IMG/VR virus record: IMGVR_UViG_3300030116_004689
Coordinates: 1-40,380 of that record
DNA from: a virus
Reading direction: 5' to 3' (one strand)
Length of the DNA stretch: 40,380 nt
A program made the position numbers and the translations under genes. Of the stretch, positions 2,461-10,360 are shown piece after piece; the stretch's first letter is position 1, and every line of letters begins with the position of its first letter. The notes beneath the pieces are model-generated. The model searched no databases. It saw only the letters and a list, made by a program, of their open reading frames with translations, and was not told the DNA's origin.

Positions 2461-2775
2461 TTAAAATGGTAAATCGTCTACTGGTTGTGATGGTTGCGGA
2501 GTTGCCGCCGCTGGTTGTGCTTGGTCCTGACGGTTAGGTTCAGGGAATGCACCATTCGTCCACACGACTTGTGTATTACCTAAGTATATCTTTTCAACTT
2601 TAGCATCTCTTTCCTCTTTCGTTTGTGAAACGACAACAGGTCCGTGATTACCAAACTGATCGACATCATCATTAACAGTAATTGTAATCGGTAAATATTT
2701 ACCTTTCGCACCGTCAATGATTTTATCTTTAGGTATCTTAGTTAAGTTAATACTTGTTTTAATTATTCCTGCCAT
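2461..2775 (-). CDS. Single-stranded DNA-binding protein-like, acidic DDLPF tail
   Basis: This 104-aa protein has a compact N-terminal part followed by a Gln/Ala/Pro-rich linker ('QDQAQPAAATPQPSQP') and the terminal peptide DDLPF. That layout, an OB-fold-sized head, a flexible linker and an acidic tip ending in Phe, is the hallmark of bacterial and phage SSBs, whose tip recruits other replication proteins. Sequence similarity in the head is not obvious by eye, so the call rests on tail, size and position. The gene lies just before primase-helicase and after the exonuclease/annealase pair, where an SSB would be expected. Confidence 0.75.
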   Translation of the reverse strand: MAGIIKTSINLTKIPKDKIIDGAKGKYLPITITVNDDVDQFGNHGPVVVSQTKEERDAKVEKIYLGNTQVVWTNGAFPEPNRQDQAQPAAATPQPSQPVDDLPF

Positions 2776-2954
2776 TATACGTAAGCGTTAATTTGTTGAA
2801 ACATTCTTTGCAACTGATCTTTTGTAGCACCAGTTGTTCTTCTTAAATTATCTACTGCTTTTACATGATTTTGATTAGCGTAGAAATTTTCTGTACTAGT
2901 TTCCATTCCTGTAACTGTACATACTTTTGTTTGAATTTTCTTTCTTCTTGCCAT
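2775..2954 (-). CDS. Small basic protein with a degenerate EndoVII-like zinc motif (59 aa)
   Basis: The preferred start is the ATG at 2954 (MARRKKIQTKV), preceded by an A/T-rich stretch like its neighbours; a longer reading from 2999 would overlap the exonuclease gene. The segment 'KVCTVTGMETSTENFYANQNHV' resembles the first half of recombination endonuclease VII-type zinc knuckles (C-x2-C ... F-Y-x-N). Only one Cys remains here and the second pair is absent, so metal binding is doubtful. Its stop touches the SSB-like start at 2775. Function unknown; it may be a DNA-binding accessory of the recombination genes. Confidence 0.6.
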   Translation of the reverse strand: MARRKKIQTKVCTVTGMETSTENFYANQNHVKAVDNLRRTTGATKDQLQRMFQQINAYV

Positions 2955-2961
2955 AATTAAA

Positions 2962-3693
2962 TTAAAGTGTTTGGTTAATAAAATACTGTGAAGGTTCAAA
3001 ACCTTCTGTTTTGTAGAATAAATCGTAAGCTTCTACTGCTCTCTTTACCTTGTCAGCACCTGATGAATAAAAATCAGGTGAACAATCCATTACAGCTATT
3101 TGATGCGTTTCCTTATCAATAACTATAAACACAAATTCATATCCAAATAGTTTACTATAGATATATGCTTGAGAATCGTAATTAAAACGGTTAGCAGACC
3201 ACTTGAAAGCGTTTATATCTTTGGTTGTTTTCAAATCAATTATAAGCTTTTCGTCATGGTTTACAATATCAGCTTTACCCTTCCATAAAGCACCTTCAAG
3301 TTCTGCTAAACCAGGCTTCTCATACTCAACATCAATGCCTTTGATTAGTCCACGACATACGTCGTTTTCTAATATTTTTTGTGTCATCAACTCTATTTGA
3401 TCAACTTCATGTTGTAACAAACAAAGTTCCCCACCAGACATTTCTTTGTATGCTTTTGTATTTCTTGTACTACTTTCGATAACCTTGTATTTCTTAAGCT
3501 TGTCAGGTTCGAGTATCGCAGTGTGGAAATATCCACCTACAAGAAATGCTGGGCTTGGTTTGGATTGTACGCCAAGGGCTAAGGGATTAGTTAGTAAAGT
3601 TTTGATATCACTATTGCTAAGAAACTGTTTACCAAATTCTCCATAATAGTTTTCATCAGACTTTAATTTTTCTAATACCTTTTTCTTGTTCAT
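2962..3693 (-). CDS. PD-(D/E)XK exonuclease, RecE/exodeoxyribonuclease VIII-like
   Basis: This 243-aa nuclease probably resects double-stranded ends to give single strands for the annealase encoded just upstream. Visible signatures are 'GGYFHTAILEP' (residues 53-63), the metal-binding core with D142 in 'GKADIV' and D153-x-K155 in 'IIDLKTTK', and a downstream 'YDSQAYIYS' (residues 172-180) supplying the Gln/Tyr motif. These match the PDDEXK domain of putative exodeoxyribonuclease 8 (DUF3799 type). It ends 8 nt before the next gene, and the ERF gene lies 1 nt upstream of its start, giving a classic exonuclease-annealase pair comparable to RecE/RecT or lambda Exo/Beta. Confidence 0.85.
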   Translation of the reverse strand: MNKKKVLEKLKSDENYYGEFGKQFLSNSDIKTLLTNPLALGVQSKPSPAFLVGGYFHTAILEPDKLKKYKVIESSTRNTKAYKEMSGGELCLLQHEVDQIELMTQKILENDVCRGLIKGIDVEYEKPGLAELEGALWKGKADIVNHDEKLIIDLKTTKDINAFKWSANRFNYDSQAYIYSKLFGYEFVFIVIDKETHQIAVMDCSPDFYSSGADKVKRAVEAYDLFYKTEGFEPSQYFINQTL

Positions 3694-6760: not shown

Positions 6761-6926
6761 TTATTATTCCTTGTTCTATTAAATTTCTTGCTGTTCTGCC
6801 AAACCAACCTTGCAATGAATATGCTAAGCGGGTGTCGTGTAAATGTTGCCAAGCTTCAATAACTTGGTCTTCGCTTTCAGCTTCTATCCAACCTTCAGCG
6901 ATTCCTGTTGCTTCGTAATTACTCAT
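6753..6926 (-). CDS. Small unknown protein (57 aa) downstream of ligase
   Basis: The start is taken at 6926 (MSNYEATGIAEGWIEAESED), overlapping the ligase stop by 8 nt. A longer frame from 7031 would run through the ligase C-terminus in another frame and is less likely. The sequence, 'EGWIEAESEDQVIEAWQHLHDT' then 'LQGWFGRTARNLIEQG', resembles small phage proteins of unknown function found beside nucleotide or ligase genes; I cannot assign an activity. Confidence 0.65.
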   Translation of the reverse strand: MSNYEATGIAEGWIEAESEDQVIEAWQHLHDTRLAYSLQGWFGRTARNLIEQGIINE

Positions 6927-7767
6927 AATTTCTAATACATTTAAATAACGGGTGTCTATAACTACCCGCGTTAGTTCTTTGAAAATAAGTAAACGTAGCA
7001 CGCTGGCCAATATAGTCTTGAATGTTTTCAAGCATATTTTTCAGGTCTTTGTAATTGTAACCTTTACCCGGAGGACAACCAAATTTGTTGCCATCATCAT
7101 CCATCATTAGGAACTTACCAAGCGTGCCTGCTCGTTTACCTTTACCAATTTCGTAGCCCACGATTGTCGCTTCGGTGTCGCTAAAGTCTTTGAACTTCAT
7201 TAACCCGTAAGATCGGCCGTGCTTATATAAAGCGCTACCGTCACGTAGTATAGAGCCCTCGTAACCGTTAGAGAGAAACGCATCGCAGTGCATATTCAAA
7301 GCTTCTTCGTGTTTTCTTACTCTGTAAGATGGCACGTATTTGATACTTGCACAATAGAAGTCTGCATTAACTAAGTTATGCATTCTAGTTGAGTACTTTT
7401 CATAATGAGAATCCATTGAAAAATAATCGTATACATGGAACTGTATCAGGTGTTGTGCATTACGTCTGTCTTCTTCGGTTGGCTTTTGCTTTCTCACAAG
7501 CGAGATGATTTTTTCAAAATCGTGTTTCAACTTATGATTATACAATTCGCCGTCAAGTACTACATCTGGTTGTTGTTCAAAGAAAGGTTTAAGAGCCATT
7601 TCAATATGTCTAAGGTTCATAAACTTTTTGTCACCTCTTGAGTAAGCGCCGTCTTTTGTAAATACACATCTAACGCCGTCAAGCTTTGGTTGTATGTAAT
7701 ACCCATCCGGTTGTGTATAATCAACTCTGTTGATATCAAACTTGTGGGCTAGCATTGGTTTTATCAT
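6919..7767 (-). CDS. ATP-dependent DNA ligase, minimal form
   Basis: Seals nicks in DNA during replication and recombination using ATP. At 282 aa it is a minimal ligase made of the nucleotidyltransferase and OB domains only. Motif I is 'KLDGVR', with K28 as the adenylated lysine; motif III is 'VLDGELY' (D72, E74); motif IV is 'EGSILRD' (E170); motif V is 'LMKFK' (K191, K193). The C-terminal OB part contains 'GKGKRAGTLGKFLM'. It follows the UVR-motif gene with a 4-nt overlap and so lies in the transcript starting at the promoter at 8045-8078. Confidence 0.95.
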   Translation of the reverse strand: MIKPMLAHKFDINRVDYTQPDGYYIQPKLDGVRCVFTKDGAYSRGDKKFMNLRHIEMALKPFFEQQPDVVLDGELYNHKLKHDFEKIISLVRKQKPTEEDRRNAQHLIQFHVYDYFSMDSHYEKYSTRMHNLVNADFYCASIKYVPSYRVRKHEEALNMHCDAFLSNGYEGSILRDGSALYKHGRSYGLMKFKDFSDTEATIVGYEIGKGKRAGTLGKFLMMDDDGNKFGCPPGKGYNYKDLKNMLENIQDYIGQRATFTYFQRTNAGSYRHPLFKCIRNYE

Positions 7768-9926: not shown

Positions 9927-10080
9927 ACTGTTTCTTCATAAATGCCGACTAACTCACTGGTTATCAGCGTTATACATGCCGCTACTATATTGAAAGGTAT
10001 TAGCGTATACCCGACAATTCTTACTGTACTCTTCAGAATTGACACATAAAAATGTTTCTGTGCGTTTGGATGTTCCATAG

Positions 10081-10356
10081 TGGACGCGGCAGGATTCGAA
10101 CCTGCGTTACCGAGTTTCGGTTGGATTCAGCTTTCGCTTACTGTTACCGAGTTTCGGTCAATACCTCATCGCGCCCTAAAAAGGTGAGCTTCATCGAGCC
10201 TCTCTTTGCAACCTCGTCAGGTACTACACGCCAACGACCACGCATTTGTGGGTACGACGTCGAGCCTTTAATCCACTCACCTATCAGGCAATTCACTTAC
10301 GTGTAAGTTAGTGTGACTTTCGTCTCCTATTTCTTACCTAATTAAGCTACTCGTCC
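10081..10356 (-). ncRNA. tRNA-like element: tRNA 3' half plus a possible distant 5' half
   Basis: Minus strand. The 3' part is an intact T-arm and acceptor strand: GCAGG-TTCGAAT-CCTGC (10089-10105) followed by CGCGTCC and a discriminator A (10081). Two alternative 5' partners exist. The near one, GGGCGCG at 10170-10176, pairs 7/7 with one G-U and gives a 96-nt element, but no normal anticodon arm can be drawn. The far one, at 10332-10356, is GGACGAG-TA-GCTT-AATTAGGTA: it pairs 6/7 with the acceptor and has canonical positions 8-21 including G18G19, but the D-stem 3' strand is poor. The second reading would be a tRNA interrupted by about 200 nt. A host tRNA 3' end kept as an attachment site is a third option. 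Confidence 0.45.
10106..10158 (-). repeat. Pair of 16-nt direct repeats, each a small hairpin
   Basis: The minus-strand sequence ACCGAAACTCGGTAAC occurs at 10106-10121 and again at 10143-10158 without mismatch. Each copy can fold as ACCGA-AAC-TCGGT. The 21 nt between them include AGC-GAAA-GCT, a GNRA-capped hairpin. The repeats lie directly against the T-arm. Confidence 0.8.
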
Positions 10357-10360
10357 TGTA

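Follow-up and report, generated by a model that had tools for sequence, protein, structure and literature searches.

The minus strand of the window at 10176-10078 very probably encodes a tag-less mini-tmRNA, namely the tRNA-like domain (TLD) of a Bacteroidota-type tmRNA without the mRNA-like domain and the pseudoknots. tmRNA is the bacterial RNA by which stuck ribosomes are rescued. The window is the whole stretch of DNA analysed here, a virus record of 40,380 bases from a marine phage. This kind of RNA is known from one phage, the Mycobacterium phage DS6A (PMC4131195, PMC11915505), and the RNA described here is a widespread variant with exchangeable nested RNA modules. As the explanation of the whole, we give a slight preference to a tag-less mini-tmRNA that is processed, alanylated and used as a decoy restraining the trans-translation of the host.

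Anatomy and fold of the RNA

The gene is 95 nt long (10176-10082) and is followed by A73 and an encoded CTA tail, while CCA is not encoded. The minus-strand sequence reads GGGCGCG ATGAGGTATTGACCGAAACTCGGTAACAGTAAGCGAAAGCTGAATCCAACCGAAACTCGGTAAC GCAGGTTCGAATCCTGC CGCGTCC A CTA (10176-10078), and its parts are given in Table 1. The acceptor has 7 bp with G3-U70 and is followed by A73, the T-arm has a loop of the TTCGANT type, and the GG of a D-loop is present without a D-stem, which are the features of tmRNA. The register of the D-loop-like segment is that of tmRNA D-loops and of one Bacteroidetes tmRNA. When the sequence was examined for tRNA features, the D-stem, U8 and the anticodon arm were missing.

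The T-arm GCAGG-TTCGAAT-CCTGC and the 3' acceptor strand had been noticed in a sequence-only reading of this DNA, and both are real, lying on the minus strand at 10089-10105 and 10081-10088, respectively. This T-arm is the only perfect one with TTCGA in the window. The segment at 10170-10176, which the same reading took for a rival partner, is in fact the true 5' partner of CGCGTCC (7/7 pairs). ARAGORN found neither a tRNA nor a tmRNA in the window. The description as an unusual tRNA-like RNA was apt: it is a tmRNA-type TLD with no anticodon and no tag. The repeats seen in this region are two copies of ACCGAAACTCGGTAAC, which base-pair together within the P2 hairpin.

The 95-nt RNA (10176-10082) folded into the acceptor, the T-arm and one central hairpin with a z-score of -3.5. 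Of 200 sequences made by dinucleotide shuffling of the window, 4 contained a T-arm that had a 7-bp acceptor partner of any kind, and none contained one with a GGG/TCC acceptor (G3-U70).

Table 1. Coordinates of the RNA elements and neighbouring genes in the window
Feature	Positions	Strand	Evidence or remark
TLD-only tmRNA-like RNA gene	10078..10176	-	RF00023 match; fold z -3.5; covariation in relatives
5' acceptor strand GGGCGCG	10170..10176	-	7/7 pairs with 10082-10088 including G3-U70; pairing recurs in relatives
D-loop-like segment ATGAGGTA	10162..10169	-	GG at positions 12-13; no D-stem, no U8
P2 hairpin, module M2 (TTGACCGAAACTCGGTAACAGTAA - GCGAAAGC - TGAATCCAACCGAAACTCGGTAA)	10107..10161	-	sequence; M2 in relatives
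T-arm GCAGG TTCGAAT CCTGC	10089..10105	-	sequence
3' acceptor strand CGCGTCC	10082..10088	-	sequence; discriminator A73 at 10081
Tail CTA	10078..10080	-	final A (10078) doubles as first base of the next gene's ATG (10078-10076)
Module M7 element, stem GGTGAG/CTCACC closing GATTAAAGGC...GGCTCGATGA, then TTTTT	10183..10281	-	recurrence
Element A, stem CAGG/CCTG, ACGAGTAGCTTAATTAGG...CGTAAGTGAAT, holding module M3	10285..10358	-	fold z -3.8; 18 distinct copies
Module M3 AAGAAATAGGAGACGAAAGTCACACTAACTT inside element A	10305..10335	-	33/33 identical stretch forms the P2 hairpin of the L146 TLD
ATP-dependent DNA ligase	6919..7767	-	used for relatives and synteny
Upstream co-directional ORF, 63 aa	10361..10552	-	no known family
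Downstream co-directional ORF, 51 aa	9923..10078	-	no known family; ATG overlaps CTA tail

Genome context and conservation in relatives

The minus-strand early arm of the window encodes a DNA primase/helicase, a PD-(D/E)XK exonuclease, an Erf-like annealing protein, a sigma-like factor and the ATP ligase. The plus-strand arm carries tail-fibre genes, a holin and GroEL-like chaperonins, of which there are two genes in this one phage genome (17895-19457 and 33716-35275). For the primase, the closest match in culture comes from Cellulophaga phage phi10:1 with 43% identity, and a Bacteroidota host is therefore likely. No close cultured relative was found, and the nucleotide search of cultured phages with the island gave only T-arm matches to tRNAs and weak chance matches.

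Relatives were gathered via the ATP-dependent DNA ligase gene, which lies 2.3 kb from the TLD, and 65 loci were obtained. Upstream sequence of sufficient length was available for 53 loci, and about 43 of these have the TLD upstream of the ligase and on its strand. L050 and L051 were entered into this count by hand, having fallen outside the scan filter, and a few of the loci derive from identical or near-identical phages. The distance between the TLD and the ligase is mostly 1.5-4.6 kb. About 10 of the 53 loci have no TLD, and L042, L057 and L062 have two copies. With additional pattern scans, the total reached 86 distinct TLD sequences.

Common to the copies are GGGNGYG, a segment such as AAATGGTTAG, a helix, AAC, the T-arm, CRCNTCC, A73 and mostly CTA; the tail ACTA was found in 79 of the 86 distinct copies. 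N73-CTA is also the end of the true tRNAs (Met, Gln) in these phages, and the tmRNA of a Bacteroidetes MAG ends in A-CTT. It suggests that CCA is probably added post-transcriptionally.

Covariation in relatives, on which the sequence-only reading had made a structured RNA depend, is present in the acceptor and the T-arm, where compensatory changes were found in 7 of 12 pairs among 25 copies. All 300 cells were paired in these copies; as both pairing and GGG/TCC ends had served to select them, this percentage and the invariance of the first three pairs are in part built in. The covariation value was 0.51, compared with 0.12 for shuffled and at most 0.15 for slid alignments. A scan of the ligase loci that did not demand G3-U70 gave 41 GGG...A73 elements, every one of which has it, and pair 4-69 takes four forms (C-G, A-T, G-C and T-A) in these loci. 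A P2 helix of at least 4 bp exists in 84 of the 86 sequences, whereas swapping the 5' and 3' halves among members gave a mean of 55 and a maximum of 65. The P2 helix thus replaces the anticodon stem, as it does in tmRNA.

TLD-only RNAs scoring above the tmRNA cut-off were also found in further viral contigs, namely L067 (61.0 bits), L105 (58.7), L151 (56.6), L128 (54.3), L108 (52.7), L076 (51.9) and L116 (51.0), all of them by pattern alone, which does not imply kinship to the window phages. In L108, the TLD-only tmRNA (1188-1270) lies 1.5 kb from a GOLLD RNA (2748-3145) on the same viral contig. A tandem TLD pair is located at 5.4-5.7 kb of L191 (Bacteroidetes MAG contig QQUU01000066.1), and one of the pair ends in ACCA with the acceptor strand TACGTCC. 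We also observed TLD paralogs with U73 and an altered first pair (AGGCGTG/CACGCCT and similar) in L014 at 8418, L035 at 1767 and L063 at 7977; they look as if the amino-acid identity had changed.

Assignment to tmRNA

At gathering scores, Rfam found no family in the window. A permissive Rfam search gave RF00023 (tmRNA) at 33.4 bits (E 2e-11), which is below the gathering cut-off of 47 bits; both ends of the model were covered, with 51 nt replacing 326. In clan competition, RF00023 comes out best at this position, ahead of tRNA. In the scanned relatives, every TLD was likewise assigned to tmRNA, and true tRNAs were assigned to tRNA at 62-72 bits. A genuine tRNA-Ala scores 39.9 bits to the tmRNA model, so the RF00023 score by itself cannot separate the TLD from tRNA-Ala, and we dropped it as the sole criterion of identity. 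The case for a tmRNA origin rests on the anatomy, the clan competition and the relatives.

Four syntenic members pass the cut-off of 47 (L062 65.0, L054 64.7, L055 59.0 and L040 53.1 bits) despite lacking the whole mRNA domain. Compared with one Bacteroidetes tmRNA, L062 shares GGGG..GA.TGGTTTTGACA in register, and L040 and L055 retain GTAGAAAGCCT from its P2 region. The window member (ATGAGGTATTGACCG) is intermediate between forms like those of L062, L040 and L055 and the commonest form (AAATGGTTAGAC).

No Ala-Ala-stop was found in any frame of 80 TLD interiors, and the window TLD, with its 51 nt against the 326 of the model, has no tag reading frame ending in AA-stop. A search of 27 related phage records found no SmpB gene, and neither a longer tmRNA nor another tmRNA piece was found in 50 records. 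It follows that the RNA is incapable of full trans-translation, and we classed it as a TLD-only derivative and not as a full tmRNA. ARAGORN called a tmRNA in L002 with the tag ERTEVYYIC, the sole such call among the relatives. This tag does not end in Ala-Ala and its coding stretch sits in a module that recurs elsewhere, and the tag peptide was rejected.

The RNA shares with full-length tmRNA (RF00023) the acceptor with G3-U70, A73, the T-arm, the D-loop without a D-stem and the P2 helix, but it has no resume codon, tag or pseudoknots and measures 95 nt against about 370. The TLD-only tmRNA of DS6A is likewise a phage tmRNA reduced to the TLD with no tag (PMC4131195, PMC11915505). Going by the published description, DS6A is a single reported phage case, whereas the RNA described here forms a large family in a different phage group, has Bacteroidota-type tmRNA features, often adjoins other RNA elements, sometimes occurs in two copies and carries exchangeable P2 modules. 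Tag-less tmRNAs of mitochondria and plastids also have no tag reading frame (PMC11915505), but they are organellar and no exchangeable modules are reported for them.

Exchangeable modules and neighbouring elements

The ends of the 86 distinct TLD copies are nearly constant, and the intervening helix carries many unrelated hairpins. Forty-four of 80 interiors match sites outside any TLD at E <= 1e-4, compared with none for reversed or shuffled interiors, and all 166 matches whose orientation could be checked are on the RNA strand. The interior of the L146 TLD is identical to window 10304-10336 (33/33 bases) inside element A, that of L030 to the interior of element A in L225 (40/40), and a free element of L049 to the TLD interior of L240 (51/51). 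Module M2 of the window occurs with different inner inserts in L026, L027, L060, L138 and L187. The modules are also nested, as M1 lies in M3 in the TLD of L002, M8 in M7 beside element A in L040, and M10 in M2 in the TLD of L060. The boundaries of the modules are our own working definitions. In a flank-pairing test around all shared segments, matches from one scaffold to another predominated.

The island described earlier as GC-rich is indeed richer in G+C than its surroundings because it holds a cluster of three structured RNAs, element A, M7 and the TLD. Element A is found in 18 distinct forms without a T-arm, also in relatives lacking the TLD, and its outer stem covaries, with compensatory changes at two pairs in 4 of 18 sequences. 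M7 sits between element A and the TLD. Its fold z-score is only -1.4, so it was recognised through recurrence and not through folding energy: relatives have it both free-standing and within TLD, A, B and C scaffolds. Element C (AACTAGGT...GACGAGTATGAGG TTCGA..CCTC.CTAGTT) was observed upstream of the TLD in L045, L054, L036 and L040; it is a T-arm-bearing scaffold that also holds exchangeable modules.

The strand bias and the conserved loops of the modules argue for an action as RNA. We propose, as a reading that is evenly balanced between acceptance and doubt, a combinatorial RNA module system in which at least 12 short motifs (M1-M15) nest and exchange, always in the same orientation, among scaffolds, an undescribed route to the diversity of phage non-coding RNA. 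The scaffolds would be the tag-less tmRNA, element A, element B, element C and free hairpins; further minimal tRNA-like RNAs, with minihelices of about 44 nt among them, are present in the same genomes. Perhaps the system serves to bind host factors of translation or defence. In mitochondria, mobile hairpin elements (double-hairpin and repetitive hairpin-forming elements; e.g., PMC2800124) are also short hairpin units at many sites, but the phage modules are always on the RNA strand, nested and seated on tRNA-like scaffolds. In the open-access literature, we found nothing fitting on nested or mobile RNA modules in phages, and both the wide distribution of the TLD and its nested exchangeable modules appear to be unreported there. 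Nested exchangeable hairpins represent an unusual form of RNA evolution and provide a natural library in which varied folds are carried by a tRNA scaffold.

Proposed function and alternatives

The steps proposed here, from excision by RNase P and RNase Z and the addition of CCA to alanylation via G3-U70 and the binding of EF-Tu and SmpB, are predicted from established tRNA and tmRNA biology. On this basis, the TLD would be transcribed within the minus-strand early operon, cut at G1 and after A73 by the RNase P and RNase Z of the host, and then provided with CCA. The host alanyl-tRNA synthetase would charge the RNA via G3-U70, and SmpB and EF-Tu would bind it as they bind tmRNA. Having neither a resume codon nor a tag, the RNA would compete with host tmRNA for SmpB and stalled ribosomes, and this competition may limit the tagging and proteolysis of unfinished phage proteins.

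It is reported that a TLD-only molecule similar to that of phage DS6A strongly inhibits E. coli tmRNA, perhaps via SmpB titration, and according to the cited review the DS6A inhibition does not need charging (PMC4131195, PMC11915505). We prefer the decoy because of the DS6A precedent and this inhibition of tmRNA by a similar molecule. The decoy function is put forward tentatively, with slightly more doubt than confidence. As the DS6A inhibition needs no charging, the invariant G3-U70 is not explained by simple SmpB titration, and the decoy model also leaves the conserved exchangeable P2 modules unexplained. Should such RNAs prove common and conserved, both in Bacteroidota phages and in other viral contigs, the use of an RNA to manipulate ribosome rescue may be routine for phages. 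The long-standing question of the role of tag-less tmRNAs, which mitochondria and plastids also have, would then become testable in a bacterium.

The main rival to the decoy is transcript punctuation, and both may hold together. The fold would then serve mainly as an RNase P and RNase Z signal. The polycistronic early transcript would be cut there, which would leave the following mRNA with a very short leader, and the modules, as the functional cargo, would be both released and protected. All 58 of 58 TLDs are flanked by same-strand ORFs, the next ATG lies at most 22 nt past A73 in 28 of them, and in the window it overlaps the CTA tail, an arrangement that agrees with punctuation. The same phages carry 44-nt minihelices of acceptor and T-arm with compensatory changes in 9 of 11 pairs (16 aligned minihelices), which come near the lower size limit of known RNase P substrates, and the modules occur without the TLD too. 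However, G3-U70 and the tmRNA D-loop are unnecessary for processing signals, yet both are kept, and G3-U70 is not a by-product, since other tRNA-like classes in the same phages dispense with it. We regard punctuation as the chief role as unlikely.

It is improbable that the RNA originated from a tRNA-Ala that lost its anticodon and D-stem and now supplies a non-ribosomal reaction with alanine or titrates AlaRS. The alanine identity consists of G3-U70 and A73, and these, like the T-arm, are common to tRNA-Ala (RF00005), which also scores with the tmRNA model as noted above. On the other hand, the D-stem, U8 and the anticodon arm of tRNA-Ala are lacking here, the D-loop register (GG at 12-13, no U8) and the AAC linker are tmRNA-like, and clan competition picks tmRNA, with syntenic members of up to 65 bits.

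Two-piece tmRNAs are common in marine phages (PMC9004378), and the TLD could be considered as one piece of a permuted tmRNA with the message elsewhere. This is very improbable because the 5' acceptor is followed by the T-arm in one short piece with a closed P2, whereas permuted genes have the reverse order, and because no other tmRNA piece was found in the 50 records.

The sequence-only reading had also taken 10332-10356 for a possible 5' half that goes with the T-arm, and hence considered an interrupted tRNA or a 276-nt structured RNA with an unrecognised intron. The far 5' half makes 6 of 7 acceptor pairs, with one A-G mismatch, and the 276 nt fold somewhat better than shuffles (z -2.4), which is weaker than the z-score of the 95-nt RNA. 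However, the far half is the conserved start of element A, which has a closing stem of its own and occurs by itself in other phages, and it is the near partner, with 7/7 pairs, whose pairing is conserved. Each half belongs to a different element, and neither a group I intron nor another Rfam intron family was found, so that we see very little chance for an interrupted tRNA.

Phage att sites often copy the 3' ends of tRNAs or tmRNAs, but an attachment site or captured host tRNA 3' end, as also suggested earlier, is hardly credible here because the acceptor stem is complete with its own 5' strand, evolves by compensatory changes and has a position between early genes that is conserved across dozens of phages. 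The window proteins that were scanned include no integrase, and a pattern scan of one genome per species gave no 40-nt match to a host tRNA 3' end. With the 26-nt 3' end, likewise in one genome per species, bacterial-gene matches occurred only in a single planctomycete MAG (L186, L190) and were tRNA-Val-like; the remaining matches were phage-like elements.

Other minimal tRNA-like RNAs

The minihelices of about 44 nt consist of an acceptor, ATGGTTAAT, a T-arm and N73-CTA, and were observed in L030, L031, L052, L202, L164, L112, L026, L207, L232 and others. A hairpin is inserted in the minihelix linker in L174, L055 and L189. Another class of about 46 nt plus the tail (acceptor, CTACGGTACTAAAGT, T-arm) has three different acceptor stems, in L026 at 7932, L027 at 7095 and L028 at 4064. 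The class GGGTAAC TACATGGACAGTAG ... CTTATCC ACTA was seen in L012 at 4690, L025 at 5051, L195 and L217; it has G3-U70 but a C-C mismatch at 7-66.
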